Shown: positions 6,821-25,029 of the stretch, piece after piece
How positions within the stretch are numbered: the stretch's first letter is position 1
Layout of the letters: each line of letters starts with the position of its first letter
Assembly: GCF_902832885.1 (NCBI RefSeq)
Contig: NZ_CADFDK010000001.1
Span: 496,001 to 560,000 of the forward strand
Reading direction: 5' to 3'
DNA: 64,000 bases
Source: Burkholderia seminalis DSM 23518
GTDB lineage: Bacteria > Pseudomonadota > Gammaproteobacteria > Burkholderiales > Burkholderiaceae
Made by a program: the position numbers and the translations under genes
Notes under the pieces: model-generated
Told to the model about the DNA's origin: nothing
What the model saw: only the letters and a program-made list of their open reading frames with translations
The model's database searches: none

Positions 6821-6821
6821 C

Positions 6822-7322
6822 GTGAAAATTGAGGCTCGCAAAGCATTGCCGGCGCCATCGTCGGATGCAATCAAAAATCTTGAGGCAACCATAAAGGTGA
6901 GTTTACCTCAAGAATATATTGACCTGCTTGGGACAATGAATGGTGCTTACATCCAAGAGAATATATTTGATATTCCTGGGGGCAACAACGCGGGGGTAAG
7001 TCAATTTATTCCTTTTGATAAAATCATCTATTGCAAATCGCTCATTGAACAAACCGGGCCGAAGAAATTTCTACCATTTGCTTACGCGTCTGGAGGGAAT
7101 TATGTTTGCTTGTCGATCAAGGAACGCGAATTTGGGGTGGTGTATTTCTTTGACCATGAAGTGCCGGGAGTGAAGGCTCTTACAAAGATCGCCCCCTCTT
7201 TATCCAAATTTCTTGACGTACTTCGCCCATTCTCTGTGGGCGACGTTGAGCTTGATCCAAATGATGTTGGTGAGGTCTGGATTGATCCTGACTTCCTTAA
7301 GCAAATAAGAGGCGAGCGTTAA
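6822..7322 (+). CDS. cdiI: SMI1/KNR4 (SUKH)-family immunity protein to the CdiA toxin tip
   Basis: A 166-residue cytoplasmic protein. The GTG start is one base after the exoprotein stop and is preceded by GGGAG, so translation is probably coupled; an upstream in-frame ATG lies inside the toxin gene and is less likely. The pattern of short acidic helices with LPQEYIDLLGTMNG near residues 30-45 and an aromatic-rich core (FLPFAYASGG, VVYFFDHE) fits the SMI1/KNR4 fold, which is the usual immunity fold paired with WHH nucleases. The gene is clearly more AT-rich than its surroundings, as is common for exchanged toxin/immunity cassettes. It should bind and neutralise the C-terminal nuclease domain; specificity is inferred from adjacency. 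Confidence 0.85.
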   Translation: MKIEARKALPAPSSDAIKNLEATIKVSLPQEYIDLLGTMNGAYIQENIFDIPGGNNAGVSQFIPFDKIIYCKSLIEQTGPKKFLPFAYASGGNYVCLSIKEREFGVVYFFDHEVPGVKALTKIAPSLSKFLDVLRPFSVGDVELDPNDVGEVWIDPDFLKQIRGER

Positions 7323-7387
7323 TTGAGGGGTATTGATATTTTTTCGTTGAAAACGATTGCCGATGAGATAGCAGGATCGAGGGTTAG

Positions 7388-9154
7388 GTGAAGATAAAAT
7401 CAACGAAACGATTAGCGGTGTTGCCTCTCACGGCATTGGTATCGCTCATGGTACAGGCACAGCAAGCGCCTACACCGGCCGATCGTGCCGCTGCCGCGCG
7501 TGCAAACGCCGAACAAGACCGACAGGCGAAGCAGCAACGTGACGCGCAGCAGCGGGAAGCCACTGTGAGTGCCCCTGCTGTTCGATCGGAAGTACCCCAA
7601 GTCGAAACGTATCCGTCGTTGCCGACCGAGCAACCGTGTTTCCGTATCGACCGCTTCGCGCTCGATGTACCGGATTCATTGCCCGACGCCGCAAAGTCGC
7701 AAGGGGCATCCGCATTGCCGATGGATCGATTCGCCTTCGCGCGCGAATGGCTCGCTCACTATTCCGGCCAGTGCGTCGGGAAGCAAGGCATAGATACGAT
7801 CGTCAAGGGACTGTCGCGCGCGATCCTGGCGCGCGGCTACATCACGACGCGTGTCCTACTGTCGGAACAGGACCTGTCGACGGGGACGCTGAAGCTGGCG
7901 CTGGTGCCCGGCGTAATCCGGCATGTGCGGCTTGCGGACGAGAAGCTGCGCGGCACCTGGAAGACCGCGTTCCCGACCGGAGACGGTGAACTGTTGAACC
8001 TGCGCGACCTCGAACAGGGTCTCGAGCAGATGAAGCGCGTGACGAGCCAGGACGTGTCGATGCAGATCGTGCCGGCCGACGTGCCGGGGGCGAGCGACGT
8101 AGTGCTCGATGTGAAGCGCGGCAAACCGTGGACGGTCGTCGCCTCGATCGACAATTCGGGCACACGCGCGACTGGCAAGCTACAGGGCAATCTGTCGATC
8201 GGCATCGACAATCCGCTCGGCCTGAACGACATCTTCAACGTCGGCGTGAGCCAAGACCTTGAACTCGGTGACAAGCGCCTTGGTTCCCACGGCTGGAACG
8301 GTTTTTATTCGATCCCGTGGGGCTACTGGACCGCAACGTTATCGGCCTACACGAACACGTACTACCAGCAAATCGCGGGCGTGAATCAAACGTTCGTGGC
8401 GAGCGGGAATTCCAAGACGATTGATTTCAAACTGGCGCGCGTGCTTGCACGCAGTCAGAACGACGTGTTGGGCGGCTACGTCCGTTTGCTGCGTCGCTTC
8501 GGTCAGAGTTTCATCGAAGATACGGAAATCTCGCAGCAGCGCCGCAACAACACGTTCGTTGAATTCGGCCTGACCGATCGTCACTACTTCGACGGGGCGC
8601 AGTTCGACGGCACGCTGGCGTACCGGCAGGGCGTCGGAGGCTTGGGTGCGCAGGACGACATTCTTGCTGCCGGTGGTGGTCCGACTTACCGTTTCAAGAT
8701 GGCGGTACTCGACGCGAACCTGTCGGTGCCGTTCGCGATCGCGAAGCAGCCGTTCCGATACTTGACGAGCATTCACAGCCAATATACCGGGAACTCGCTG
8801 TACTACATCGATGACTTGACGATCGGCAGTCGCTACACAGTTCGCGGTTTCGACGGCGAAACGATGCTGGCGGCGGCGCGCGGCTTCTACTGGCGCAACG
8901 AACTGCAGATGCCGATCGGACAGACCGGACAGGCGATCTATGCAGGACTGGATTACGGTCGCGTTTGGGGGCCGCAACCGGTTGCGTTGGTCGGTACGCA
9001 GTTGGCCGGTGCCGTAATCGGCATCAAGGGCAGCGTCGCGACGCGCTTCGGCGGCTACGGTTACGACCTGTTCGCCGGTACGCCGGTCTACAAGCCGTCT
9101 GGATTTCCGACCGCGCGCGTCACGCTCGGGTTTCAAGTGACGGCTCAATTCTGA
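7388..9154 (+). CDS. cdiB: TpsB/ShlB-FhaC family outer-membrane transporter (CdiB)
   Basis: A 588-residue outer-membrane protein that exports the upstream exoprotein. GTG start after GAGGG; the N-terminus is a signal peptide ending near AQA, followed by an Ala/Gln/Arg-rich linker. Residues about 80-250 look like the two POTRA domains (for example the TRVLLSEQDLSTGTLKLALVPG region), and the rest is a 16-strand beta-barrel ending in Phe. The VRGF motif of the conserved loop-6 tip is present. The order toxin-immunity-transporter is the Burkholderia arrangement, not the enterobacterial transporter-first order. Confidence 0.92.
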   Translation: MKIKSTKRLAVLPLTALVSLMVQAQQAPTPADRAAAARANAEQDRQAKQQRDAQQREATVSAPAVRSEVPQVETYPSLPTEQPCFRIDRFALDVPDSLPDAAKSQGASALPMDRFAFAREWLAHYSGQCVGKQGIDTIVKGLSRAILARGYITTRVLLSEQDLSTGTLKLALVPGVIRHVRLADEKLRGTWKTAFPTGDGELLNLRDLEQGLEQMKRVTSQDVSMQIVPADVPGASDVVLDVKRGKPWTVVASIDNSGTRATGKLQGNLSIGIDNPLGLNDIFNVGVSQDLELGDKRLGSHGWNGFYSIPWGYWTATLSAYTNTYYQQIAGVNQTFVASGNSKTIDFKLARVLARSQNDVLGGYVRLLRRFGQSFIEDTEISQQRRNNTFVEFGLTDRHYFDGAQFDGTLAYRQGVGGLGAQDDILAAGGGPTYRFKMAVLDANLSVPFAIAKQPFRYLTSIHSQYTGNSLYYIDDLTIGSRYTVRGFDGETMLAAARGFYWRNELQMPIGQTGQAIYAGLDYGRVWGPQPVALVGTQLAGAVIGIKGSVATRFGGYGYDLFAGTPVYKPSGFPTARVTLGFQVTAQF

Positions 9155-9227
9155 CCATTTTTCCCGACCGCGATGACAAGAAGTCTAGCGTGCAGATTTT
9201 CAGTGCAGTACAAAAGGGGACAAAACC

Positions 9228-9863
9228 TTGAAATCGATAAAACAAAATTCTGCGCTGATTCTCATGGCAGCATCGGCGACACTTGCCGGCTGTGCTTCGA
9301 ACATGGCGGACATCCCGCGCGAGCAAAAACTCGCACCGGTTGTTGTGTACGTCGAGTCGTGCGGCAATTACCAGCTTGACGGCGCGCTATCGAAATACGT
9401 TTGGGATACGGTTGAAATCAAGTATGAGAACCGTCGTCGGAGGATGAATCAGTTGCTCAATATGTGCAACAAATTCAACGCGTCGATTGCGTCGGCGATC
9501 TCTGCGGAAGGCATCAATGCAAGGATCGTGTCCGTGACGACCGAAGAGCCGCCGACGCAGGAAGTTCGCGACCGGGATGCCGTCGCCTTGGGGGCAACGT
9601 ATGCGCTCTACGTTGGAAAGCCGATCTTCAAATCGATTCTTCAATCATCAGGACAACGGCCGCTTACGATTGTCGCCTACGACCTGAACCTTTACCGGGT
9701 AGGAAGAAACAAGCCGATCGGGACGGGGGAAGCGAACGATTTGGATGCGAGCATCGCCGCAAATCGTGTTGCGCATACGCTTGTTGAGCGCTGTAACCCG
9801 AGTTTCGTATATGGCTGCGCCAATGACCCAAGTTACGGGATTACTGGAACAGTTGGCGGTTGA
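9228..9863 (+). CDS. Putative lipoprotein at the end of the CDI locus
   Basis: A 211-residue protein of unknown function. The start is a TTG with a good Shine-Dalgarno sequence (AGGGGA eight bases upstream); no ATG gives a signal peptide. The N-terminus is a lipoprotein signal with LAGC, lipidated Cys at residue 22. The mature part is polar and contains several Cys (VESCGNY, MCNKF, ERCNPS, YGCAN). It lies 73 bp after cdiB on the same strand. Burkholderia CDI loci often carry a small lipoprotein gene (bcpO), but usually between immunity and transporter genes; this one is larger and last, so equivalence is only a guess. Confidence 0.72.
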   Translation: MKSIKQNSALILMAASATLAGCASNMADIPREQKLAPVVVYVESCGNYQLDGALSKYVWDTVEIKYENRRRRMNQLLNMCNKFNASIASAISAEGINARIVSVTTEEPPTQEVRDRDAVALGATYALYVGKPIFKSILQSSGQRPLTIVAYDLNLYRVGRNKPIGTGEANDLDASIAANRVAHTLVERCNPSFVYGCANDPSYGITGTVGG

Positions 9864-9900
9864 ACTTCGAGCAGCCCGTGGATAGAAGACTTACAAGGTA

Positions 9901-9999
9901 TGTCCGGCGAACCGGATCATCGAAGTGCGCACGGATGGCACGCTGTTCGACTCCGGTGGGAATTACGAGGAATTCCTGACGAGTCTGGGGCAGGAGTAA
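9901..9999 (+). pseudogene. 3' remnant of an ABC-F family ATPase gene
   Basis: Reading 9901-9999 gives 32 residues plus stop that match the extreme C-terminal pattern of YbiT/EttA-like ABC-F ATPases: ANRIIEVRTDG, then FDSGGNYEEF and a terminal LGQE. An in-frame TAG at 9883 closes the frame, and no Walker or signature motifs occur upstream. The fragment keeps its terminator (10036-10067). It is therefore a leftover tail, probably separated from the rest of the gene when the CDI locus or its flank was inserted or rearranged. Confidence 0.72.
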
Positions 10000-10035
10000 G
10001 TATCCTGAGTCGTACCTGATCCGTTGCACCCAAGA

Positions 10036-10067
10036 GGGCCGCCGAGTTGTACTTGGCGGCCCTTTTT
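10036..10067 (+). terminator. Rho-independent terminator
   Basis: Perfect 8-bp stem GGGCCGCC / GGCGGCCC with an 11-nt loop, followed by five T. It follows the ABC-F remnant and also isolates the CDI locus from the next cluster. Confidence 0.88.
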
Positions 10068-10193
10068 GTTTCCGCCGGTTGCGACGCCCGCTGGCGTCGC
10101 CCATTCCGGTTTCCTCTGCTCAATCGACTTCGGGTAAATTACACTCCAAACGCACGTCGCCATTCCCCATTCCGACCCGGAGCCCGTTTCTCG

Positions 10194-10943
10194 ATGCAGG
10201 ACCATTCTCTCCCGCTCGACCTGTCCGGCCTTGCGCCAAGCCTGTACGCGCAGGGCACCGAGGAGGGCATCCTGTCGCGCATGATGGAGCGAATCGCGCC
10301 AGTCAATCGCTTCTGCGTCGATATCGGCGCGAGCGACGGCCTGCGCAACAGCAACACCGCGCGGCTGCTGCGTGAGGAAGATTGGGCCGGCGTACTGGTG
10401 GAAGGCAGCGCATACCGGTTCGGCAAGCTTGCCGCTCACTACGCGGGTGCAGAGCGCGTCCGGCTGCATCACGACCGCGTCCAGCCCGACACGGTCGACC
10501 ACCTGCTCGCCGATGCGGACACGCCTGAGGACTTCGACCTGCTATCGATCGACATCGACGGCAACGACTACTGGGTCTGGCGTGGGCTGCAAGCGTTCAA
10601 GCCGCGCATCGTCGTGATCGAGTACAACCCGTACTACACGCCGCCCGAGCGCTGGGTCATGTGCTTCAACCCGGATCACGAATGGGACGGCTCGACCTAT
10701 TACGGCGCAAGCCTCGAATCGCTCGTCCATCTCGGCAGGCAAAAGGGCTATGAACTCGTCTGCTGCGACGACATGGGCAACAACGCGTTCTTCGTGCGGC
10801 AGGACCTGTATCCGCTGCTGGGCATCGCGAACAACGATCCTTCGGTGCTGTTCCGGCCGGCGATGTACAAGCTGCGCTACGTCGGGCACAACACGTTCCT
10901 GACCGGTCATCCGTATCGGCACGGGCCGGCCGAGCATATCTGA
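10194..10943 (+). CDS. FkbM-like SAM-dependent methyltransferase, first gene of the tailoring cluster
   Basis: A 249-residue cytoplasmic protein. ATG 10194 is chosen because the in-frame extension upstream runs into the preceding terminator. Motifs: DIGASDG at 43-49 (SAM-binding glycine loop), LLSIDIDGNDYW at 116-127 and VVIEYN at 140-145, the pattern of the FkbM methyltransferase superfamily, which O-methylates sugars and polyketide-type hydroxyls. Its stop is immediately followed by the ATG of the next gene, so it opens a tight run of five genes. The substrate is unknown. Confidence 0.75.
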   Translation: MQDHSLPLDLSGLAPSLYAQGTEEGILSRMMERIAPVNRFCVDIGASDGLRNSNTARLLREEDWAGVLVEGSAYRFGKLAAHYAGAERVRLHHDRVQPDTVDHLLADADTPEDFDLLSIDIDGNDYWVWRGLQAFKPRIVVIEYNPYYTPPERWVMCFNPDHEWDGSTYYGASLESLVHLGRQKGYELVCCDDMGNNAFFVRQDLYPLLGIANNDPSVLFRPAMYKLRYVGHNTFLTGHPYRHGPAEHI

Positions 10944-11936
10944 ATGGGGCCGCTCGCCGCCACCTTCGACGAGATTCGAGAGGCCTACGCGCTCGGCCGC
11001 GGTCCCGCGCCGCGCCGGGTCAGTGAACGCGTGTGGCATCTGCCGGCCGACGGCGGCGATATGGCCGTCAAGCTTTACGCGTCCGAGCACCATGCACGCG
11101 CGGCAAAGGAGGCTGCCATCCTCGCGCACCTCGAAACTCACGGCGATACCCGGTTCCATGTACAGACGCTGAAGCGCACGACGGACGGCGATCCGCTGTG
11201 GACGGGGCAACACTCGCACGCGCTGCTGACGCGCTGGGAGGCCGGGCAGTTCAGGACCTACGACACGTTTTCACCGGCCGAATGGGATGCGCTCGGCGCC
11301 AGTCTGGCCGCGTTGCACCTGGGCCTCGAACAGTTTCATCTGCCATCACTTGATACGATTCGCGCGCGCTTGGCTGCAATCGACGTGGATGCGGTGCGCC
11401 GCAGCCTGCTGGATGCATTGAATCGCTCGCGCTCGAACGACAACGCCGCGAACTTGCGCCGTTACGTCGATCTCGCGCTGCGCATGCTCGATCGCTACTA
11501 TCCCGGCAGCCTCGACGCGTTTCCCGCCGACGACCCGCAGCACCCGATCCACAACGACTACAACCAGTTCAACTATCTGTTCACGGGCCGGCTGCCGCCG
11601 CTGATCCTCGACTGGGAAGCGTCGATCGGCGCGCCGCGCGAATACGAACTGGTACGCTGCCTGAATCATCTGCCGCTGGAAGCGCCGCAACGGGCGGAAG
11701 CGTTCGTGCGTGCCTACCAGCGGGTGCGGCCGGTGAATCCGGCGCGTATCGCCTGGGCGGTCGATGCGGCGTGCCTGCAGCACGCACTCAAGCTGTGGAT
11801 CGTGCAAGGCTGGCTGGACGATCCGTCGCGCTTCGCGTCGCACCTGAGCGGCGCGGTGACGATGGCATCCGCGATGGTGGACGCACGCGGCCATCTGGTC
11901 GATTTCTTTTCCCGTTGCGTGGAAGCAGGAAGCTGA
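10944..11936 (+). CDS. APH-fold phosphotransferase
   Basis: A 330-residue protein starting directly after the preceding stop. It has an AVKLY strand (Lys43, ATP-binding lysine), HNDYNQFN at 203-210 (catalytic Brenner-type loop, with Asn replacing the usual Gly) and LDWE at 222-225 (metal-binding Asp). This is the aminoglycoside/choline/homoserine-kinase superfamily. It is one of two APH-fold proteins in the cluster. A small-molecule hydroxyl or amine is the likely acceptor; resistance, activation and biosynthesis are all possible. Confidence 0.75.
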   Translation: MGPLAATFDEIREAYALGRGPAPRRVSERVWHLPADGGDMAVKLYASEHHARAAKEAAILAHLETHGDTRFHVQTLKRTTDGDPLWTGQHSHALLTRWEAGQFRTYDTFSPAEWDALGASLAALHLGLEQFHLPSLDTIRARLAAIDVDAVRRSLLDALNRSRSNDNAANLRRYVDLALRMLDRYYPGSLDAFPADDPQHPIHNDYNQFNYLFTGRLPPLILDWEASIGAPREYELVRCLNHLPLEAPQRAEAFVRAYQRVRPVNPARIAWAVDAACLQHALKLWIVQGWLDDPSRFASHLSGAVTMASAMVDARGHLVDFFSRCVEAGS

Positions 11937-11937
11937 C

Positions 11938-12816
11938 GTGAGTGTGAATCCGAACGAGATCCCGAATCCGCCGCCGTCCGGCGAGCGCCAGCATGTGTTT
12001 CCGCCGCCGCTGGATCGCGATTACCGGGTCGAAAACGGCCGCATCCGGACGCGCTCGCTGGAAGCGCATATCGTCGATCACTGCAACCTGACCTGCGCGG
12101 AATGCTGCTCGCTGTCGCCGCTCCTGCCGGCGTGGCACGCGAGCCCCGATTCGATCGAGGCCGATCTGCGCATGGCCGCGAAGGTATTGAGCCCGCGCAT
12201 GTTCAAGCTGGTCGGCGGCGAGCCGCTGTTGCATCCGGCGCTCGTCGAAATCGTCGAACGCGTGCGCGGCACGGGTATCGCGCCCGTGATTTCGGTCACG
12301 ACCAACGGCCTGAAACTCGGCGAGATGCCGGACGCGTTCTGGCAAGCGGTCGATGCGCTGACGATCTCGCGCTATCCGAGGCCGGCGCTTTCGCCCGAAC
12401 TGATCGCGCACGTCGAGCGCCAGGCCGCGCGTTTCGGCGTACGCCTGAACTGGAAGGTGCAGGACGTGTTCACGACGATGAATCGCGCCCAGCCCGGCAC
12501 GGACCGCGACGAAGCGCAGCGTCTCTATCACGATTGCTGGATTCGCGAGCGCTGCCACATGATTCGCGACGGCATGTTCTACACGTGCACGCGTCCCGCG
12601 CATTTCCATACGCTTTACCGGGGCGAGAAGGATTTCCAGGCCGACGGCCTGCCGTTGCGCGACGATGCGGACATGCTCGACGCAATGCTCGCCTATCTGC
12701 AGCGCGACGCGCCGCTCGAAGCGTGCCTGCATTGCCAGGGCGGCAGCGCGCCGGTGGCGCCGCATCGCATCCTGAAACGCGTTGAAGTGGACCTCCTGAA
12801 GGCTCGTTATCCATGA
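11938..12816 (+). CDS. Radical SAM enzyme with C-terminal cysteine cluster
   Basis: A 292-residue protein with a GTG start one base after the preceding stop. The CxxxCxxC motif that binds the SAM-cleaving 4Fe-4S cluster is at Cys49, Cys53 and Cys56 (CNLTCAEC); GGEP follows at 93-96, as in true radical SAM proteins. Additional Cys near the C-terminus (RERCH, YTCTRP, CLHCQGG) resemble a SPASM/twitch-type auxiliary cluster region. The substrate is unknown. Its stop overlaps the next start by ATGA, indicating coupled translation with the ligase-like gene. Confidence 0.85.
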   Translation: MSVNPNEIPNPPPSGERQHVFPPPLDRDYRVENGRIRTRSLEAHIVDHCNLTCAECCSLSPLLPAWHASPDSIEADLRMAAKVLSPRMFKLVGGEPLLHPALVEIVERVRGTGIAPVISVTTNGLKLGEMPDAFWQAVDALTISRYPRPALSPELIAHVERQAARFGVRLNWKVQDVFTTMNRAQPGTDRDEAQRLYHDCWIRERCHMIRDGMFYTCTRPAHFHTLYRGEKDFQADGLPLRDDADMLDAMLAYLQRDAPLEACLHCQGGSAPVAPHRILKRVEVDLLKARYP

Positions 12817-13880
12817 TCGTCGGCACGCGCGACCCGTTCGGGTTCGATCGTCTTCACTACCATCCGCGCAGCGGCGTGTCGGCATCCGGCATCCGCGCCG
12901 TCCTGCACGCGTCGGCGCAGCCGGCCGGTGCGCCGGACACGGCCGCCATCGCGGGTTACCTGAGCGGCGAGCGGCTCGTCGGCCGCACCGTGCTGCGCGA
13001 CGTGCTCGCGGTGCCGCCGGGGCATGCGCTGATCCGTTCGCCGCAAGGATTGACGGTGCAGCCGTCGCCCGAGCGGCCGCGGCATGCCGATCTGGACACC
13101 GTGCTGCGCGCGTCGCTGCAACGCGCGCTCGACAGCGGCAAGCGCGTTGCACTGGCGCTGAGCGGCGGCCTCGATTCGGCGCTGCTGCTCGCGTTGTTGC
13201 GCGAACTCGGCGCGCTGCCGCACGTGACGGCCTACGTGCTCGCGACCGAGATGCCCGACTATTGCGAGCTCGACGCGGCGCTTGAACTCGCGACGCAGAT
13301 GCAGGCGAACGTGAAGATCGTGCGGGCGAATGAAGCCGATTTCGTCGCGGCGCTGCCGAGAACGACCCATGCGGTCGAGGAGCCGATGTTCAATCTGCAT
13401 CCGGTCGCGAAGCGGTTGCTGGCCGAGGCCATGGCGGCGGACGGCATCGAGGTTGCAATTACCGGCGACGGCGCGGATCAGGTGTTGCGCCGCGACCGGT
13501 CGGCCAATTACCTGCCGCTGTGCCACGCGTTGTTCGATGCGGCGGCGGTTGACCTGCATCCGCCGTTCGTCGATGCGGAGGTCGTCGCGCATCTGACGAG
13601 CATCGCGCCGGACCCGAACAAGCAATGCCTGCGCGATCTCGGTGCGCGCCTGAACCTGCCGGACCGTCTGGTGCACGGCCCCAAGCGCGGACGACTCGCG
13701 CCGGCGATGGACCTCGGCGCGCTGCTCGATCGCGAGCGCACGCATGCGCTGGCCGGTACGCTCGGCCTTGCCGCGCCCGCACTGCGGGCCGATACCGAGC
13801 GCGTGCTGTGGGCGACGCTGACCCTGATCCTCGATCATCTCGAGCACCTTTACCGCGATGCCGCGCATCGTCCAACCTGA
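12813..13880 (+). CDS. Asparagine-synthetase-like ATP-dependent amide ligase lacking the glutaminase domain
   Basis: A 355-residue protein; ATGA overlap with the radical SAM gene fixes the start. SGGLDS at 117-122 is the ATP-pyrophosphatase loop of the AsnB family, with TGDGADQ at 217-223 as the second adenylation motif. The N-terminal part keeps only the end of an Ntn-type region (GRTVLRDVLAVPPGH) and begins Met-Ile, so the catalytic Cys2 for glutamine hydrolysis is absent; AsnB proteins are usually well over 500 residues. By analogy with beta-lactam synthetase and lasso-peptide cyclase, it may join a carboxylate to an amine other than ammonia. This is inference. Confidence 0.8.
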   Translation: MIVGTRDPFGFDRLHYHPRSGVSASGIRAVLHASAQPAGAPDTAAIAGYLSGERLVGRTVLRDVLAVPPGHALIRSPQGLTVQPSPERPRHADLDTVLRASLQRALDSGKRVALALSGGLDSALLLALLRELGALPHVTAYVLATEMPDYCELDAALELATQMQANVKIVRANEADFVAALPRTTHAVEEPMFNLHPVAKRLLAEAMAADGIEVAITGDGADQVLRRDRSANYLPLCHALFDAAAVDLHPPFVDAEVVAHLTSIAPDPNKQCLRDLGARLNLPDRLVHGPKRGRLAPAMDLGALLDRERTHALAGTLGLAAPALRADTERVLWATLTLILDHLEHLYRDAAHRPT

Positions 13881-13887
13881 ACCGCTC

Positions 13888-15096
13888 ATGACACGCATCC
13901 TGTTCTGCGTCGTGCCCGAGAAGGGCCACGTCAATCCGTGCATCGGCCCGGCCCAGCATCTGCGCGCGGCCGGCTGCGACGTCGCGTTCTACGCGCCGGC
14001 CGATATCAGCGAACAGCTCGACGGCGCCGGCGACTTCGCGTTCGTCGGGCCGCGCGAGACGCCCGAGCGCCACGACCTGTCGCGCGGCGCGAGCTTCGCC
14101 GCGAACATCCGCGACGCCGACTGGCTGCGGCACTGGATCCGCACGCTGCTGATCGACCTGGCGCCGTCGCAGGTGGACGGCATCCGTGCGGTGCTGCGCG
14201 ACTGGCGGCCCGATGTGGTCGTGATCGATCCGCTGCTTTACGCGGCCGCGATCGCCGCCGAGCTGGAAGGGCTGCCGTGGGTGTCGATGTCGAATTCGCT
14301 GAATCCGGTGCTGCCGGACGATCTCGATTCGGAACTGCTGCGCACGGTGCGATGGCTCGCGCCGGAACGTGCCGGGCTGTTTGCGCGCTACGGGCTCGAT
14401 GCGCGTTTTCGCGGGTGCGATGTCCTGTCGCCGCACCTGACGCTCGCGTTCACGACCGACGCGCTGGTCGGTGCGCCGCCGCCGGGTGTCGAGCTGGTCG
14501 GCCCCGCGATGCCGTCGGGGCCGCGCGGCGACGAGACGGCGTTTCCGTGGGCGCGTATCGACGCCGGTCGCCCGCTCGTCTACATGTCGCTCGGCAGCCA
14601 GCTTTACTACCATCCGGACCTGTTCTCGAAGGTGATCGACGCGACGCGCGCGACGTCGGCGCAACTGGTGCTGTCGGTAGGCGAACTGGTCGATTCGGAT
14701 CTGCTGCCGGCCGGTGACGAGCGCGTGATCGCGGTGCGCTATGCGCCGCAACTGGCGCTGCTGCGGCGCACGCATGCGTTCGTCAGCCATGGCGGCGCCA
14801 ATTCGGTGATGGAATCGCTCGCGTGCGGTGTGCCGATGCTGCTGTCGCCGTTCTGCAACGACCAGTTTCATTCGGCGCACTTCGTCGAGCGGGCCGGCGC
14901 GGCGTGCGTGCTCGATCTGCAGCGTGCCGGCGTCGCGGAGATTGCCGCTGCGCTCGAGCGCCTGTTGCGTCCGGGCCCGCTGCGCGAGCATGCGGCACGG
15001 ATTCGCGACAGCTACGCCGCGCGCGACGGCTCCGCGCAAGCCGCTCGCCTGATCAGCGCACTCGCTTCAGGAAACCGCCTGGCGACAGCGTCATGA
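13888..15096 (+). CDS. Family-1 (MGT/UGT-like) glycosyltransferase
   Basis: A 402-residue GT-B fold enzyme. ATG 13888 gives the standard N-terminus (MTRILFCVVPEKGHVNP); an in-frame ATG at 13858 would overlap the previous gene. The nucleotide-sugar motif HGGANSVMES at 301-310, followed by LACGVPMLLSPFCNDQ, is typical of UDP-glycosyltransferases acting on small lipophilic acceptors such as macrolides or lipids. Its 3' end overlaps the convergent methyltransferase-like gene by 44 bp. Confidence 0.85.
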   Translation: MTRILFCVVPEKGHVNPCIGPAQHLRAAGCDVAFYAPADISEQLDGAGDFAFVGPRETPERHDLSRGASFAANIRDADWLRHWIRTLLIDLAPSQVDGIRAVLRDWRPDVVVIDPLLYAAAIAAELEGLPWVSMSNSLNPVLPDDLDSELLRTVRWLAPERAGLFARYGLDARFRGCDVLSPHLTLAFTTDALVGAPPPGVELVGPAMPSGPRGDETAFPWARIDAGRPLVYMSLGSQLYYHPDLFSKVIDATRATSAQLVLSVGELVDSDLLPAGDERVIAVRYAPQLALLRRTHAFVSHGGANSVMESLACGVPMLLSPFCNDQFHSAHFVERAGAACVLDLQRAGVAEIAAALERLLRPGPLREHAARIRDSYAARDGSAQAARLISALASGNRLATAS

Positions 15097-15742
15097 GCAC
15101 GCGGTCCTCGATGTCGTGGTCGGCCTCGAAACGGTCGTCGCGGGCGAGAAATTCACGCGCGGCCGTGGCCGGGTTGTTGCCGCGGCCGTACGGCTTGCCG
15201 TCGAACATCGATGCGGGCAGATACTCCATGATGGTATCCATCACGATCGCATAGCTGCCGGGCGTCACGAGCGGCGCATAGCATTCGAGTTCGCGCAGCA
15301 CGTGCGCATGGGTATGCGTGAGATCGAGGATCGCCATCACGCGCGCGCCGTCGCGGAGCTGCGCGTGCACCGCCGCGAGCGTGTCGGCCGCGCACGATTC
15401 GCCTTCGATCAGCACCATGCGATGGGCCAGCCGGTGCGATTGCAGGCGTTGCCTGACCTCGTCGCGCAGCCGCGGTTCGACCGCGACGACGCGGCCGTGC
15501 CCGCCGGCCAGTTCCAGCATCGACGCGGAGAACACGACACCGCCGCCCGCCGCGATGCCGGTCTGCACGATACAGTCGGGGCGTTCGCGCCAGATCAGTT
15601 CCTGGAGCGCAAGCATGTCGCCGGGCAGATGGAAGAAGCGCTCGCCGAGCCAGCGCGTCTGGAACAGATGGTCGAATTCGGCGGCGCGCGTCAGCCATTC
15701 GATATTGAGGTCCCGTATGCGGGCCGAAGGACGCTCTGACAT
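15053..15742 (-). CDS. CmcI-like (cephalosporin hydroxylase/rhamnosyl O-methyltransferase family) protein
   Basis: A 229-residue protein from ATG 15742; a longer frame reaching 15913 lacks support. The core QTGIAAGGGVVFSA (SAM-binding glycine stretch), a VAVEP segment, the ILDLTHTHAHVLREL segment and GSYAIVMDT match the CmcI family, which are SAM-dependent methyltransferases despite the historical hydroxylase name. It is transcribed against the rest of the cluster. Its chosen start codon overlaps the ATG at 15741 on the other strand, which argues for the later GTG of that neighbour. Confidence 0.72.
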   Translation of the reverse strand: MSERPSARIRDLNIEWLTRAAEFDHLFQTRWLGERFFHLPGDMLALQELIWRERPDCIVQTGIAAGGGVVFSASMLELAGGHGRVVAVEPRLRDEVRQRLQSHRLAHRMVLIEGESCAADTLAAVHAQLRDGARVMAILDLTHTHAHVLRELECYAPLVTPGSYAIVMDTIMEYLPASMFDGKPYGRGNNPATAAREFLARDDRFEADHDIEDRVLMTLSPGGFLKRVR

Positions 15743-15767
15743 GGTCAATGCAACGAGTAGGAGTGAC

Positions 15768-16733
15768 GTGAAAACGCTGGAACCGTGGCTGCGCCGGTAC
15801 TGGAACATCGTGCCGGCACGCGGGCAGGCGATGGCATCGGGCCATACTAACAAAACGTATCTCGTCGAGTATGACGCGGGGCGCGCGGTGCTGCGCGTGT
15901 CGTGGCCCGGCAAGCCGGCCGAGCAGGTGCGTCGCGAGGCGTCGATACTCGGTCATCTCGGCGAGACGCGCACGGTGCCGGCATTACCCGCGCTGCCGCG
16001 GCTGAGGCCGACCGTCGATGCGCAATCCGGCGTGCTCATCGACGATGGAAGCTGGCTGCACCTGTTCGAACCTGTCGACGGCGATCCCGGCCTGCCGCAT
16101 GACGCGCAAGCGGGGGCGATCGATGCGATGCGCGCGCTCGCGCATCTGCATGCGGCACTGGCCACGATACCCGTGAGCGAATCGACGCCGCTGGCGTGGT
16201 TGTCGGCCCGTCATGCGCGCGTGTCGGCGCACGCGATGCCGTCGCTGCCGGCCGGTTTGAGCGGCGATTACGATGCGGTGATCCGGCGGATCGGCGCGCA
16301 TCTCGACGCCGCCGCGCACTGGCTGGCGGGGCCGGTGCATTGGCTGCACGGCGACTATCACGCGGGCAACCTGCTGTATGTCGGCCACACGGTGAACGGC
16401 GTGCTGGATTTCGACGATGCCGGGCAGGGCGCGCAGTGGCTTGAGGCGGCCTTCGCACTGTTCGCGCTGTCGCGCGACGCGGGCAGGGACGATCGTTTCG
16501 TGTTCGATGCGCAGCGCTGGGAGGCCGGCTTGCACGCCTATGCGGCGACGCGGCGCGACGGTGTACCGGGCTGGATGCGTGCCGAGCGCGATGCGTTGAT
16601 GACGCTGTTCTGCGTGGACCAGACGCTGATCCATCTGGAGGCGGCACAGCGCGGCTTGTGGATGCCGGGGCCCGGCATCGGCTTTCTCGGCGGCTGGCGG
16701 CAGTTGCTGGACAGTGCAGCGCCGGGAAACTGA
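15768..16733 (+). CDS. APH-fold phosphotransferase (second copy in the cluster)
   Basis: A 321-residue protein. GTG 15768 is preceded by AGGAG four bases upstream; the ATG at 15741 lacks this and collides with the divergent start. HGDYHAGN at 194-201 is the canonical Brenner catalytic loop and LDFDD at 213-217 holds the metal-binding Asp. This is the aminoglycoside phosphotransferase/homoserine-kinase-like family. It differs strongly from the copy at 10944-11936, so this is not a recent duplication. Substrate unknown. Confidence 0.78.
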   Translation: MKTLEPWLRRYWNIVPARGQAMASGHTNKTYLVEYDAGRAVLRVSWPGKPAEQVRREASILGHLGETRTVPALPALPRLRPTVDAQSGVLIDDGSWLHLFEPVDGDPGLPHDAQAGAIDAMRALAHLHAALATIPVSESTPLAWLSARHARVSAHAMPSLPAGLSGDYDAVIRRIGAHLDAAAHWLAGPVHWLHGDYHAGNLLYVGHTVNGVLDFDDAGQGAQWLEAAFALFALSRDAGRDDRFVFDAQRWEAGLHAYAATRRDGVPGWMRAERDALMTLFCVDQTLIHLEAAQRGLWMPGPGIGFLGGWRQLLDSAAPGN

Positions 16734-16745
16734 CCGGCCGTTGCT

Positions 16746-17321
16746 TCAGCTTCGCCGATTCAGGAACAGGCGGACGGCTTCGACCGTGTTGGGCCGCGCG
16801 TCGCCATGTCGCGAGCCGTCGTGCATGCAGAACAGCACGTCGCGACGCTGCGTCGCGCGGGCGTCGGCATGCGCGCACATCGCGTCGAACAGCGCCTGCG
16901 GCGACGGCGCCGGCCGCTGCCAGTCGTCCAGTATCGCGGTCCAGCCCGTGTGTTCGCGCCGCAGGCGCGCCAGCACGCCGGCGCGATCGTCCCGCGGCAT
17001 CAGCCCGTACGGCAGACGCAACGGGATCGCGTCCGGCGCGGCAATACCGGCCCGGCAATAGGCGTCGCGGATCAGTGCGTCGGTCGCCTCGATCTCGCCG
17101 ATCAGCGCGTCGTCCGCCAGCGCGCCCGGTCTGGCATGCGAATGGGTGTGATTGCCGAGGCGATGGCCTTCGCGCGCCATTCTCGCGGCGACGTCGAGTG
17201 CGCCCGCCAGATGTTTACCGAGCAGGAAGAAGGTCGCCTTGCACGATGCGTCGCGCAGGACGTCGAGCAGCGAAGGGGTCGACGGACCGGGGCCGTCGTC
17301 GAAGCTGAGGTGAATGGACAT
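16746..17321 (-). CDS. NodB-type polysaccharide deacetylase family protein
   Basis: A 191-residue single-domain carbohydrate esterase family 4 protein. SFDDGP at 6-11 supplies catalytic base and metal-binding Asp, and HTHSH at 58-62 the metal-binding His pair; a late MHDG supplies the catalytic His region. There is no signal peptide, so it should act in the cytoplasm, which favours an N-acetyl sugar on a small molecule or lipid over peptidoglycan. It is convergent with the second APH-fold gene, 12 bp apart. Confidence 0.8.
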   Translation of the reverse strand: MSIHLSFDDGPGPSTPSLLDVLRDASCKATFFLLGKHLAGALDVAARMAREGHRLGNHTHSHARPGALADDALIGEIEATDALIRDAYCRAGIAAPDAIPLRLPYGLMPRDDRAGVLARLRREHTGWTAILDDWQRPAPSPQALFDAMCAHADARATQRRDVLFCMHDGSRHGDARPNTVEAVRLFLNRRS

Positions 17322-17379
17322 CGCGGGCGGGCGTGCCGTCTAGGGTGTACCGGACGAACGATAGCGCAATTCGCGCCGG

Positions 17380-17919
17380 CTACTGAATCGGCTCGACGTG
17401 CAGCGGACAGGTGCCGATCGGGCGCAAGCGCTTGCCGGTCCACGTATAGAAGAACCGGGCGGCCTTCGCGTGGTTGTCGTCGCAATCGCCGTTGAAGCAG
17501 CCGGCGATGATCAGCAGCGTACTGCCGGCACGGAAGTCGACGCGCTCGTCGTCGTTGCCCATCACGCCCGAAATGGCGGTGACGCCCGGCATCGTGTATG
17601 TCGCACCCGAGTACTTGTCGACGATCGCGAAATTCCGGCAATCCGTGCCGCAACCCCAGATCGCGACGCGATAGTGACCGGCAAAATTGGCCGGTTGCGT
17701 GAATGCGTCGCGGATCACGGTGCGGTACAGGCGTGCTTCCTTGCTGGTCAATCGGGGCGATGCGGCCGGCTGGCGCGGCGCGCGCGCGGCCGGTGCCGGA
17801 TAGCGGTCGAACGACGGTGACGGGCATGCCGCCGCGGGCGCCGCACGGGCAGTGCCTGAACCGGTGATCAGCGCAGCCGCTGTGCCGGCGAGCAGCAGCA
17901 TTCGATGGGCGAGCGCCAC
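17380..17919 (-). CDS. Secreted hypothetical protein
   Basis: A 179-residue protein. GTG 17919 has AAGGA seven bases upstream and gives a signal peptide (MALAHRMLLLAG... cleaved near ARA-AP); the longer frame to 18066 lacks this. The mature domain has Cys-rich stretches (IWGCGTDCRNF, GCFNGDCDDN, GTCPL), suggesting disulfides in the periplasm. The motif FAGHYRVAIWGCGTDC is characteristic, but the family is not recognised with confidence. No clear functional link to its neighbours. Confidence 0.7.
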   Translation of the reverse strand: MALAHRMLLLAGTAAALITGSGTARAAPAAACPSPSFDRYPAPAARAPRQPAASPRLTSKEARLYRTVIRDAFTQPANFAGHYRVAIWGCGTDCRNFAIVDKYSGATYTMPGVTAISGVMGNDDERVDFRAGSTLLIIAGCFNGDCDDNHAKAARFFYTWTGKRLRPIGTCPLHVEPIQ

Positions 17920-18199
17920 GCGAGCATCCTTCAGGTTCGAGGTTGAAGGCCGGCCGGCGGCGACGATTCCATGACGCTTCATGCGCGCCGGCGAGACGGA
18001 ATGCGATCGTCGGTACGTGCCTTCGGCCGCATGTCGAGCTTGCAGTGCCGGCCGGCACGCCGTCAAGCATTGTCAAATCGCCGCGATATCACGATGCCTG
18101 ACGTTTCGGACCCGGCATGAAGGCTGTCATGCAGGGGGGGATTGAGTATGCTTGGATTCGATTCGCGGTACTCACGCCGTGACAACCGGGAGGCTTCAC

Positions 18200-18679
18200 A
18201 TGAATGCACGTCTATACCGCGCGACCATTGCCGGCGCGCTGATCGGTTTGCTCGCGCCGTTTCCGGTGGCCCATGCGCAGCTGGGCGATGTCCTGAAACA
18301 GGTCGGCGGCGGCGATTCGGGCGGCAGCGCGGGTGGTGCGTTCGGCAACCTCGGCGGCCTCGGCGGCGCGCTGACGGGCGGCGGCGGGGCGTCGCTGACG
18401 CCGGGCAGCACCGGCAACGTCGCGGGCCTGCTGCAGTTCTGCATCCAGAACAACTATCTCGGCGGCGCGTCCGGCAGTGGCGCGTCGTCGGTGAAGGACG
18501 CGCTGCTGAGCAAGCTCGGCGGCAATGCGTCGTCGGACAGCGGTTATACGAGCGGCGCGAGCGGGATCCTCGACGCCGGCAACGGCGGCAAGCTCGACCT
18601 GAGCGGCGGCGGCCTGAAGCAGCAGGTGACCAGGCAGATCTGCGACAAGGTACTGACGCAGGCGAAATCGCTGCTGTAA
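18200..18679 (+). CDS. DUF2501-family secreted protein
   Basis: A 159-residue protein with a signal peptide ending AHA-QLGD; ATG 18200 has a GGGAGG Shine-Dalgarno sequence. The middle is Gly/Ser-rich low complexity (GGLGGALTGGGG). The C-terminal half carries the conserved QFCIQNNYL and TRQICDKVL Cys motifs of the DUF2501/YjjA family. Periplasmic, function unknown. Confidence 0.78.
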   Translation: MNARLYRATIAGALIGLLAPFPVAHAQLGDVLKQVGGGDSGGSAGGAFGNLGGLGGALTGGGGASLTPGSTGNVAGLLQFCIQNNYLGGASGSGASSVKDALLSKLGGNASSDSGYTSGASGILDAGNGGKLDLSGGGLKQQVTRQICDKVLTQAKSLL

Positions 18680-18827
18680 GCACCACAGCGGCACGCACGG
18701 CGCGTGCCGGCATCGAAGGGGGGGCGGTGCTCGTGCACCGTTCACCGTCAGCCATTCAGGCCGTTACTTCCGCAGCGGCGACAAGACCGTCGCGCCGGGC
18801 GACGCCGCGGCCCGCGCGCACCACGGC

Positions 18828-19193
18828 TCAGTCGGCCAGCCGCTTGTCCGCGAGGGCCTTGCAGCAGTCTTCATACACCCATTGCACGAGTTTCGCGCGG
18901 TAATCGAGATCGTCGGTGTCGACGATTTCCTCGACCGCGTCGCGCGCCCACGACGCGTCGACGAACCCCGCATGCCGCTTCGCGATGTCCTGCGCGAGCG
19001 CCGCGAGCTTCGCGACCGCGAGCCAGTCGGCCTGACGGTGATGGCGGTCGAGCCAGCGGTGCGCGGCCTGGACCTGGAACGTGGCGTCCGGCCACGATTC
19101 GTTGAGGTAAAACGCGCCGAGGTTGCCGCAGGTGAGCCAGCAGAGCAGCTCAAGGCGGTCTTGCGAGCCGAGGGTATGGGATGCGTCGGTCAT
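18828..19193 (-). CDS. Conserved hypothetical protein
   Basis: A 121-residue soluble, probably all-helical, acidic protein (LLCWLTCGNLGAFYL, WARDAVEEIVDTDD). ATG 19193 is chosen as the first Met giving protein-like composition; the extension to 19361 is Arg/Pro-rich and looks like a shadow. No family recognised. Confidence 0.6.
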   Translation of the reverse strand: MTDASHTLGSQDRLELLCWLTCGNLGAFYLNESWPDATFQVQAAHRWLDRHHRQADWLAVAKLAALAQDIAKRHAGFVDASWARDAVEEIVDTDDLDYRAKLVQWVYEDCCKALADKRLAD

Positions 19194-19718
19194 GGCAGCG
19201 CTCACGAAATGCGTCGATTCCTGGCGGCGCCGGATGCAATGAGCCGGTGCCGATATTAAAAACATAGCACGATGCGGGCCTGCCCGCGCACCCGGGCCGA
19301 TGCTGATGTGGCGGCGGTCGCGCACACGCCGCCGGCGGCATGCGCGGCCGGCGAGCGCCACGCGGCGCGACGGCTCCCCGATTCTTTCGAATGGCTGTCA
19401 ATCGTCATGCCGGCCGACCGAAACGCTCGCTAGAATGTCGGCTTTCCCGCGACGCATGGGACCGGAGCAAGCGCTGAAGCGCCAACTCTGGTCGACCGCG
19501 CAAGGGCATGGGACCAGAGCAAGCGCTGAAGCGCAAACTCGGGTCGACCGCACAAGGGCATGGGACCAGAGTAAGCGCTAAAGCGCCAACTCGGGTCGAC
19601 CGCGCAAGGGCATGGGACCAGAGTAGGCGCTAAAGCGCCAACTCTGGTCGACCGCACAAGGGCATGGGACCAGAGTAAGCGCTAAAGCGCCAACTCTGGT
19701 CGACAGGAGACGGAAGCG
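19194..19718. other. Intergenic region holding the repeat array and a possible promoter
   Basis: Outside the repeats only one candidate signal is seen: a TAGAAT hexamer at 19431-19436, a good sigma-70 -10 box, but with no convincing -35. It would place the transcription start just before the first repeat. The rest is GC-rich with no credible gene; short frames across the repeats are artefacts of the 52-bp period. Confidence 0.5.
19454..19704. repeat. Five tandem 52-bp repeats with internal hairpins upstream of an aldehyde dehydrogenase gene
   Basis: Copies begin with GCATGGGACC at 19454, 19506, 19558, 19610 and 19662, an exact 52-bp period; the fifth ends at GTCGAC (19704), just before the Shine-Dalgarno AGGAGA. 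Each unit contains ACCAGAGT ... ACTCTGGT inverted arms around AGCGCT and AAGCGC. Arms are perfect in copies 4 and 5 and carry one or two mismatches in copies 1-3. The array fills most of the gap between 19193 and 19719. If transcribed, it would give a leader of up to five hairpins. It is not a CRISPR: there are no distinct spacers. Confidence 0.92.
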
Positions 19719-21155
19719 ATGAAAATCTACGACCAGTTCTACATCGACGGCGCATGGCGCAAACCGGCCGGAACCGGCACGATCGACGTGATCGACTCGG
19801 CCACCGAGGCCGTGATCGGCCGGATTCCCGAAGGCGTCGCATCCGACGCGCAGGACGCGATCCGCGCGGCGCGCGCGGCCTTCGACGCATGGGCGGCCAC
19901 GCCGGCCGCGACACGCGCGGGCTACCTGCGCAAGATCGTCGAGCATCTGCAGGCGCGCAGCGAGGAACTCGCGCAATCGATCACCGGCGAAGTCGGGATG
20001 CCGATCAAGCTGTCGCGCGCGATCCAGGTCGGCGGCCCGATCTACAACTGGAAGGCGTACGCGAAGCTCGCCGAGTCGTTCGAATTCGAGGCGCAGGTCG
20101 GCAACTCGCTCGTGGTGCGCGAGCCGGTCGGCGTCGTCGCGGCGATCACGCCGTGGAACTACCCGCTGAACCAGGTCACGCTGAAGGTCGCGCCGGCGCT
20201 CGCGGCCGGCTGCACGGTCGTGCTGAAGCCGTCCGAAGTCGCACCGCTCAACGCGTTCATGCTCGCCGAAGCGATTCACGAAGCCGGGCTGCCGGCCGGC
20301 GTGTTCAACCTCGTGTGCGGTTATGGCCCGGTCGTCGGCGAGGTGCTGGCCACCGATCCGGACGTCGACATGGTGTCGTTTACGGGCTCGACGCGCGCGG
20401 GCAAGCGCGTGGCCGAGCTGGCGGCCGCGGGCGTCAAGCGCGTCGCGCTGGAGCTGGGCGGCAAGTCGGCATCGGTGATTCTTGACGACGCCGATTTCGC
20501 GACGGCCGTGAAGGGTACGGTGAACGCGTGCTACCTGAACGCGGGACAGACCTGCTCGGCGCACACGCGCATGCTGGTGCCGGAAGCGCGCTACGACGAA
20601 GCGCGCGCGTTGGCGAAGGCCGCGGCCGAAGCGTACGTCGCGGGCGACCCGCGGCAGGATACGACGCGCCTCGGCGCGCTGGCGTCGGCCGTGCAGCAGC
20701 AGCGCGTGCAGGCGTACATCCAGCGCGGCATCGACGAAGGCGCGGAACTCGTGACGGGCGGCACGGGCCTGCCGGACGGCCTCGCGAAGGGCTTCTTCGT
20801 GAAGCCGACGGTGTTCGGCCGCGTCGATCCGAAATCGACGATCGCGCAGGAAGAGATCTTCGGGCCGGTGCTGTCGATCATCACGTATCGCGATGAAGAG
20901 GAAGCCGTGCGCATCGCGAACGATTCGCCGTACGGGCTCGGCGGCGCGGTGTGGGCCGGCAGCGACGAACGCGCGATGCGCGTCGCGCGCCGCCTCCGCA
21001 CGGGGCAGGTCGACATCAACGGCGGCACGTGGAACGCCGCGGCGCCGTTCGGCGGCTACAAGCAGTCGGGGCACGGCCGCGAGAACGGCGTGTACGGGCT
21101 CGAGGAGTATCTCGAGTACAAGTCGATGCAGCTGAAGCCGGCGAAGCCTGCCTGA
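19719..21155 (+). CDS. NAD(P)-dependent aldehyde dehydrogenase
   Basis: A 478-residue, full-length ALDH-superfamily enzyme that oxidises an aldehyde to the acid. Catalytic Cys279 lies in NAGQTCSAH, general base Glu245 in [13 protein letters not shown] at 145-149 and FTGST at 221-225 form the cofactor site. ATG 19719 has AGGAGA eight bases upstream, directly after the repeat array. A strong terminator follows. The substrate cannot be told from sequence; no pathway genes flank it apart from a nitronate monooxygenase beyond the terminator. Confidence 0.92.
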
Positions 21156-23454: not shown

Positions 23455-23848
23455 CGGAAGGGTTCGCGCGGTTGAATCGTGAACCGCCATTTTAATGCAT
23501 CGCGGCCGCCGGGTCGGCCGGCGCCGGCCGGCATGCGATCCCGGTGCGCCGGCGCGACCGTCCGGCCGCGCGCCCGGTATGCGACCGCGGTTTCGCCCCT
23601 GACCGTTTTTCCCGGTGGACAGATGCCGATTACCCGATAGAATTCCCCCGGAACGCCCCGCCGCGCGGGCAGCCTGGCTGGCCGGCGGCGGGAATCTGTT
23701 CCGTTTGCGCGACACCGGCATGTTTTTTTTGTGACGGCGCGCGAATGATGGTAGTTTTCGGGGTTTTCGAGGGGTGGCGCGCCAGAATGCGCCGCCATGA
23801 CGAGGCAGACGGCAGCCGGGCAACGTGTCCGGCCGGAGGGAGAACGGG
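23455..23848. other. Divergent intergenic region between the DUF1289 gene and potF
   Basis: No gene is seen. It holds a candidate promoter for potF at 23616-23643 and a T8 run at 23718-23730 without a convincing hairpin before it. The start of transcription of the DUF1289 gene is not evident. Confidence 0.6.
23616..23643 (+). promoter_or_regulatory. Candidate sigma-70 promoter of the potFGHI operon
   Basis: TGGACA, 16-bp spacer, TAGAAT. It would leave a leader of about 200 nt before potF. Confidence 0.45.
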
Positions 23849-24943: not shown

Positions 24944-24971
24944 CGCGAGCCGAAGTGAACCCGCAGTCATG

Positions 24972-24997
24972 AAGCCCCTGGTGCCCCCGGGGGCTTT
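24972..24997 (+). terminator. Intercistronic hairpin between potF and potG
   Basis: AAGCCCC / GGGGCTT arms with an 11-nt loop and a short T stretch (TTTGTT). Likely a partial terminator or 3' stabiliser that keeps binding-protein mRNA in excess over the transporter mRNA. Confidence 0.6.
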
Positions 24998-25029
24998 GTT
25001 CGTCTAACGCAGGAGAGAAGCAGCACATC

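Follow-up and report, generated by a model that had tools for sequence, protein, structure and literature searches.

An eight-gene tailoring-enzyme cassette conserved among Burkholderiales and its predicted glycoside product in Burkholderia seminalis

HygY and SpeY are radical S-adenosylmethionine (SAM) enzymes of the hygromycin B and spectinomycin pathways, respectively. Mycothiol and bacillithiol are made with a glycosyltransferase (GT), a de-N-acetylase, and an ATP-dependent ligase, and teicoplanin is glycosylated by a GT1 enzyme and then de-N-acetylated by a PIG-L protein. Bulgecin is an N-acetylglucosamine (GlcNAc) glycoside with an amide. The cassette compared here with these systems consists of eight adjacent genes, A to H, of Burkholderia seminalis DSM 23518, located at positions 10194 to 17321 of the 64,000-nucleotide (nt) stretch analyzed (the window, in which all positions are given unless another locus is named). 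The block is a discrete portable cassette, and with a probability of about 0.6 it directs the synthesis of a soluble glycoside of low molecular weight, with primary metabolites as the starting material, by epimerization, glycosyl transfer, deacetylation, amide ligation, phosphorylation, and O-methylation. A preliminary description of the window had proposed eight adjacent open reading frames (ORFs) with their domains, and all were recovered at the same positions from the ORF list and with Pfam and NCBIfam, as follows.

A, 10194..10943, + strand: FkbM-family methyltransferase, 249 amino acids (Pfam PF05050, E 2.4e-7)
B, 10944..11936, + strand: divergent small-molecule kinase of the aminoglycoside phosphotransferase (APH) fold, 330 amino acids (NCBIfam homoserine kinase PRK05231, E 8.4e-6, far below cut-off)
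C, 11938..12816, + strand: twitch radical SAM enzyme, predicted sugar/cyclitol epimerase, 292 amino acids (CNLTCAEC at residue 49)
D, 12813..13880, + strand: AsnB-like ATP-dependent amide ligase without glutaminase, 355 amino acids (Pfam PF00733, E 1.1e-25)
E, 13888..15096, + strand: MGT-type glycosyltransferase, 402 amino acids (TIGR01426 MGT, E 1.6e-38, below cut-off; PF00201, E 2.4e-18)
F, 15053..15742, - strand: CmcI/rhamnosyl O-methyltransferase family, 229 amino acids (Pfam PF04989, E 1.3e-60, longer ORF searched)
G, 15741..16733, + strand: APH-family kinase, 330 amino acids (Pfam PF01636, E 1.6e-22, longer ORF searched)
H, 16746..17321, - strand: NodB-family de-N-acetylase, 191 amino acids (Pfam PF01522, E 1e-21; NodB TIGR04243, E 1.2e-20, below cut-off)

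In total, 45 loci were examined, and 35 of them, representing 34 distinct contigs because L043 and L053 are the same contig, carry the full block with identical gene order and strands, which indicates that the arrangement is not due to chance. The full block spans seven named genera and one proteobacterial metagenome-assembled genome (MAG): 24 rows come from Burkholderia and 11 from Paraburkholderia, Trinickia, Chitinasiproducens, Bordetella, Achromobacter, Verticiella, and the MAG. The remaining ten loci comprise two cut by contig ends (L057 and L071), one with A, B, C, and F only (L084), and seven chosen because their genomes lack C. A search for co-occurrence of the radical SAM and AsnB-like homologues across Burkholderia, which the preliminary description had proposed, returned identical distributions, with 31 of 65 genomes containing C and exactly these 31 containing D. 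Thirty of these C loci, including that of the window, were read, and the A-B-C-D-E order was the same in 29 of them, with A and E lying partly inside the piece; L032 shows A to D, and its piece stops after the start of D. The 31st genome (G015, locus L038) has all eight genes. Close matches to A (≥80%) occurred in 34 of 398 sampled family genomes, all of which carry C (30 of the genus and four others), and four more A matches of 29 to 33% were found in genomes of about 2 Mb from which C is absent. In the order sample, C was matched at E 1e-15 in 2 of 399 genomes, namely, the window's own and one with a 33% match, and in the phylum sample a C profile built from a 22-row alignment recovered at E 1e-30 only the window's own genome out of 398. 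Among plasmids, C was found in one record and D in none.

These distributions, the order kept over seven genera and the MAG, and the empty site described below support the proposal of a single uncharacterized biosynthetic unit. The possibility raised at the outset that homologues would be scattered over unrelated loci was not borne out, since the C homologues of >60% identity in the genome-contig scan described below all lie in the full block, except for those in the contig-cut L057 and L071, and those of 41 to 57% keep part of it. The five packed genes A to E, proposed to act as one unit, do hold together, with spacings of 0, 1, -4, and 7 nt that agree with the gaps or overlaps of 0 to 7 bp first described, but the unit is larger, as F, G, and H travel along. 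An alternative ATG for E lies upstream at 13858, and the tail of E is overlapped by F over 44 nt. A single CATG palindrome at 15740-15743 provides the starts of both divergent genes F and G; it is retained in 34 of the 35 full-block rows and is in frame with G in 32. Because of this shared start, the upstream signals of F and G would each lie inside the other gene. The ratio dN/dS was clearly under 1 in every gene and ranged from 0.06 to 0.43 across the eight, each compared with 10 other loci (Nei-Gojobori point estimates, no test). No Rfam match was obtained over 6500-20000. All eight proteins of the window carry the motifs looked for.

The most informative protein for the chemistry is C. Its AlphaFold model (pLDDT 90.8) has the twitch fold, with SpeY (7wzv/7wzx/7x0b) as the best Foldseek match (TM 0.84, E 3.1e-28, 31% identity), and the other families among the matches listed reached a query-normalized TM of about 0.5 at most. 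In NeoN of the neomycin pathway, Cys249 is the hydrogen donor (PMC10991966). In C, Cys 200, 206, 217, 263, and 266 are invariant in 22 of 22 rows, besides the SAM-cluster triad; the CxxxCxxC motif is present together with four cysteines (200, 217, 263, and 266) that would serve as auxiliary-cluster ligands. C is also 37% identical to the product of a radical SAM gene on a Streptomyces plasmid that carries an APH(7'')-Ia-like gene, DegT aminotransferases, and glycosyltransferases, a cluster that is likely of the hygromycin type. Through the SpeY alignments, Cys206 of C aligns with Cys183 of this Streptomyces HygY-like protein, and SpeY has Ser there. In HygY, Cys183 is reportedly the hydrogen donor, and its loss is said to turn the enzyme into a dehydrogenase; the title of the study agrees, without the residue number. 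The presence of Cys206 would thus provide the extra cysteine of HygY-type epimerases, and because of this match and the precedent of a cysteine donor in NeoN, C is predicted from its sequence and fold model to be a HygY-type sugar/cyclitol epimerase. In the C tree, from which SpeY was left out, the Streptomyces row, L034, and L085 (the chosen outgroup) split from the 26 other rows with an SH-aLRT of 100.

Two other roles for C were considered. In the first, the cassette is the same but C is a SpeY-like dehydrogenase or another radical enzyme, so that the product is oxidized and not epimerized. SpeY is indeed the closest solved structure, and the reaction of C cannot be fixed by sequence alone; however, the Ser of SpeY is replaced by Cys in both C and the Streptomyces HygY-like protein, and Cys206 is invariant in all 22 rows, which makes this alternative unlikely. 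In the second, the block is an anti-phage system with a viperin-like radical SAM enzyme, as PADLOC matched some 100 residues of the radical SAM core of C to pVip (E 1e-10). However, the other seven proteins have no PADLOC match at E 0.001, C scores 34 against the NCBIfam viperin model with a cut-off of 180, and the TM of its model is about 0.4 with viperin versus 0.84 with SpeY, so the chance of an anti-phage function is slight in the extreme.

The ligase D carries SGGLDS and GDGADQ in the window protein, and its homologues keep the PP-loop synthetase motifs of AsnB (SGG[LI]DS in 19 of 20 and GD[GA][AV]DQ in 20 of 20). Cys2 of the glutaminase is absent from all 20, as judged from script-called N termini; D starts inside the former glutaminase domain, aligning from position 137 of TIGR01536, and a remnant is kept. 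D is therefore, as first described, a glutaminase-less AsnB-like ligase and is expected to accept ammonia or an organic amine. AsnB was on top of 25 PDB profile matches. A full-length AsnB was considered as a glutaminase partner of D and rejected for the window genome, where the only match, partial and of 42%, lies on another contig; D thus seems to need no AsnB partner in Burkholderia. A full-length AsnB gene adjoins D in L069, L071, and L074 to L080 (L071 and L077 being contig-cut) and follows H in Trinickia L067.

Both B and G have weak PDB relatives. B had no Pfam match at E 0.01, and HNDYNQFN-type and DWE motifs occur in 14 of 14 of its homologues; for G, HGD[YF]HxGN and DFDD occur in 12 of 12. 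The profiles of B and G were joined by hhalign with a probability of 92% (E 5.9e-7), so their description as two unrelated kinases was too strong. Since enzymes that inactivate macrolides and aminoglycosides belong to the MGT and APH families, and sub-threshold matches were seen, a cassette for antibiotic inactivation or self-protection, in which the MGT, APH, and methyltransferase proteins modify toxins, was also weighed. It is very improbable, as the scores of all the listed resistance models are far under the cut-offs, neither a radical SAM enzyme nor an amide ligase counts as a resistance enzyme, and the core is co-inherited over phyla.

The methyltransferase A, with motifs DIGASDG and DIDG, is 63 to 81% identical to eight aligned homologues, and F distantly matches the CmcI structure 2bm8 (E 1.3e-4). 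The deacetylase H has the motifs SFDDGP, HTHSH, RLPY, and HDG and is probably cytoplasmic because the protein starts directly at the catalytic domain. Its best NCBIfam match is NodB, which would fit a pathway for Nod-factor-like lipo-oligosaccharides, but H scores 73.8 against a NodB cut-off of 240 and neither NodA nor NodC is found among the eight proteins or the scanned neighbors, leaving this origin of the product highly doubtful.

Among the eight proteins, only D has 19-residue windows with a Kyte-Doolittle value of ≥1.6, two in number and located at the PP-loop, and no clear membrane segment is seen in any of them. This bears on whether the block is an operon for a surface glycolipid or for modification of an envelope polysaccharide. 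Mycobacterial glycolipids are also tailored by FkbM, CmcI-type, and GT1 enzymes. Asparagine synthases, glycosyltransferases, and a polysaccharide deacetylase likewise occur together in a Burkholderiales exopolysaccharide region (PMC3684757). However, WzxC, CapK, and several GTs are also encoded in that region, the names of two of its three asparagine synthases mark them as glutamine hydrolyzing, and a radical SAM enzyme is unmentioned there (PMC3684757). Moreover, the cassette encodes no membrane GT, flippase, exporter, initiating transferase, or polymerase, and the transporter genes among the scanned neighbors are a distant binding-protein-dependent ABC set (23825-27113) that is an importer by its parts. 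An envelope function is therefore improbable. The preliminary description had suggested a glycosylated, amide-bearing small molecule or a surface glycolipid; a soluble aminosugar glycoside amide is the best reading, and the surface glycolipid received no positive support. The match to a known capsule or O-antigen pathway that had been allowed for did not occur either, as no capsule or O-antigen gene is among the eight.

For the soluble glycoside, the following route is proposed. B and/or G would phosphorylate the sugar or acceptor, E would join an N-acetylhexosamine to the acceptor, and H would take off the acetyl group. C would invert one carbon of the sugar or cyclitol, with a 5'-deoxyadenosyl radical abstracting a hydrogen and Cys206 returning one. 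D would adenylate a carboxylate and form an amide with ammonia or an amine, e.g., that freed by H, and A and F would add O-methyl groups. The product may be an intracellular metabolite because the eight genes include no exporter, regulator, or known resistance determinant.

A wider distribution of the core was seen when genome contigs were scanned for C with two short peptide patterns. The scan yielded 72 loci and is not a census: the full block is present in 26, L057 and L071 are truncated by contig ends, L073 and L084 stand apart, 11 have another architecture (L074 to L083 and L087), and 31 contain only the C superfamily, with best segments of about 24 to 37% identity (a short 53% piece in L115) and no match to the other seven genes. 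Among the 11 loci, L074 to L076, L078, and L080 encode C, a glutaminase-less D, a full-length AsnB, an MGT, a GT2, and a protein here called X, with a PIG-L deacetylase in L074 to L076 and L080; L077 and L079 end early. The loci L081 to L083 and L087 encode C, a glutaminase-less AsnB-like protein (PF00733 without GATase, Pfam having been run on three of the four), an MGT, X, and PIG-L. The PIG-L assignment is by Pfam in L074, L081, and L083 and by tblastn elsewhere. Thus, C, a D-like protein, E, and a deacetylase occur together in 8 of the 11 loci, with PIG-L replacing NodB, and this swap between two unrelated deacetylases is good evidence for a deacetylation step in the pathway. These loci belong to Verrucomicrobiota, Bdellovibrionota, Myxococcota, and Planctomycetota, which together with the phylum of Burkholderiales makes five phyla.

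Protein X (e.g., 15651-16457 in L074) has about 255 to 310 amino acids and the motifs DVGQTxIK and NDAELAA, adjoins the MGT and PIG-L genes, and was found in Verrucomicrobiota, Planctomycetota, Myxococcota, and Bdellovibrionota. Five members had no Pfam match at E 10, and Foldseek gave exopolyphosphatase, hexokinase, N-acetylmannosamine kinase, and GlcNAc kinase matches, none at E 0.001 or better. Its motifs resemble those of ROK/ASKHA proteins, which is no more than suggestive: X may be a ROK-like sugar kinase and would then parallel the APH kinases.

The quartet of a twitch radical SAM epimerase, a glutaminase-less AsnB-like ligase, an MGT, and a de-N-acetylase may be the signature of an undescribed class of epimerized aminosugar amides in at least five phyla, with the Burkholderiales cassette as its O-methylated, APH-phosphorylated branch and an intracellular, cofactor- or osmolyte-like role, not that of an antibiotic. 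This generalization is tentative, with the odds somewhat against it; the role is suggested because the core is conserved without resistance or export genes among the eight.

Several observations weigh against the proposed route. No sigma-70-like promoter or terminator was detected in a scan of 9860-10260. In L084 of Paraliomyxa miuraensis (8187-11501), A, B, C, and F occur with no D, E, G, or H within the 20.8-kb piece, so C may act without D and E. No PIG-L was seen in L078, the motif patterns of F and A are missing from the most distant rows, and the H[DE]G pattern is absent from 5 of 12 H homologues. The enzyme classes are read from sequence, and from them we infer the substrates, the step order, and the product; the N-acetylhexosamine donor is a proposal, as the sequence of E does not specify one. 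The equation of Cys206 with the hydrogen donor of HygY presumes that Cys183 has this role in HygY. In L073, at a Kofleriaceae contig end, C and F lie side by side, and L084 and L073 together suggest a sub-module that can do without D, E, G, and H.

The borders of the block agree with its portability. On its left side, the cassette is bordered by an ABC-F-type gene or part of the 3' end of one in 22 of the 24 Burkholderia rows, but not in L038, with other flanks, or L055, at a contig start; genes I and J (J being a DUF2501 gene) or another ABC ATPase gene (L036, L048, L052, L053, and others) lie to the right. An empty site, in which the ABC-F gene adjoins I or J, was found in L131, L132, L134, and L136, which are four of the seven loci without the cassette. 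Of the other three, L130 has a contact-dependent-inhibition (CDI)-type locus at that site, and the ABC-F gene was not found in the pieces of L133 and L135 (only a 31% match in L135). The flanks differ in the 11 non-Burkholderia rows, where none of these neighbors was detected. Families are broadly reflected in the C tree (quick method), in which eight forks below 80 were left open. The full ABC-F-type gene (L037 copy) encodes two ABC_tran domains and an ABC_tran_Xtn linker, with no membrane domain match. In the window genome, the left border is the following feature.

9906..9999, + strand: 94-bp near-copy of the 3' end of the ABC-F-type ATPase gene, 94.7% identical to L141 14350-14443

A CDI-type locus (263-9863) lies between the ABC-F gene and the cassette and comprises a hemagglutinin-repeat protein with a C-terminal WHH/colicin-DNase-type domain, a SUKH protein, a ShlB/FhaC transporter, and a small ORF (9228-9863) with no Pfam match. 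The ABC-F 3' near-repeat (94 bp, 94.7%) is found on both sides of this locus, a span of about 13.5 kb. CDI-type loci also occur at the ABC-F border in L056 and, without the cassette, in L130. The ABC-F 3' end is a border elsewhere too, with a phage-integrase-family protein beside it in L035 (11878-13031) and displaced 3' pieces in L045 (7929-8057) and L061 (7899-8012), and it looks like an insertion hotspot in Burkholderia. In L042 (1471-3165), a 564-amino-acid ORF with a low third-position GC (0.43) lies between J and I and is assigned by Pfam to AIPR, an abortive-infection-type protein (E 3.3e-42).

No pathway with this gene set was found in the open-license literature or libraries searched, in line with the preliminary description, which had also reported no polyketide synthase (PKS), nonribosomal peptide synthetase (NRPS), ribosomally synthesized and post-translationally modified peptide (RiPP), or transporter gene; none is present among the eight. 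NRPS/PKS carrier proteins and adenylation, condensation, and ketosynthase domains, as well as the cyclitol synthase and DegT aminotransferase of aminoglycoside clusters, are absent from the eight and from the scanned neighbors. With respect to a RiPP precursor gene, the gaps between A and E are ≤7 nt and the starts of F and G overlap, small ORFs elsewhere having had no systematic search.

With HygY and SpeY, C has in common the fold, the CxxxCxxC motif, and the twitch cysteines, and it retains the fifth Cys seen in the Streptomyces HygY-like protein; the eight genes of the cassette, unlike the HygY and SpeY pathways, include none for a cyclitol synthase, a DegT aminotransferase, or a SIS protein. 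The logic of mycothiol and bacillithiol synthesis could also underlie GlcNAc transfer, deacetylation, and amide formation here, and the distant clade has PIG-L; however, the cassette has a GT1-like enzyme rather than GT4, an AsnB-like enzyme rather than MshC/BshC, and, in addition, a radical SAM enzyme, kinases, and methyltransferases. D shares the PP-loop and GDGADQ-type motifs and the lack of Cys2 with beta-lactam synthetase and CarA (weak PDB matches) and with lasso cyclase (a weak match), whereas its N-terminal domain is cut to about 90 residues and its context differs. Teicoplanin tailoring is alike in its GT1 and de-N-acetylation steps, but the cassette has no NRPS scaffold. Bulgecin of a Burkholderia cepacia complex strain is likewise a Burkholderia GlcNAc glycoside amide, but the NRPS and sulfotransferase parts expected for it in a study that had not located the bulgecin genes (PMC5472815) are absent from the cassette. 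The enzyme families are all known, and, within the reach of the searches, neither their combination nor its distribution has been described. The cassette is a well-bounded, conserved pathway whose chemical logic is testable gene by gene, and as 31 of 65 genomes of the genus carry it, its metabolite could be a common but overlooked trait of Burkholderia. If C is an epimerase, it would extend HygY-type sugar epimerization from the actinobacterial aminoglycosides to Burkholderiales and other phyla.

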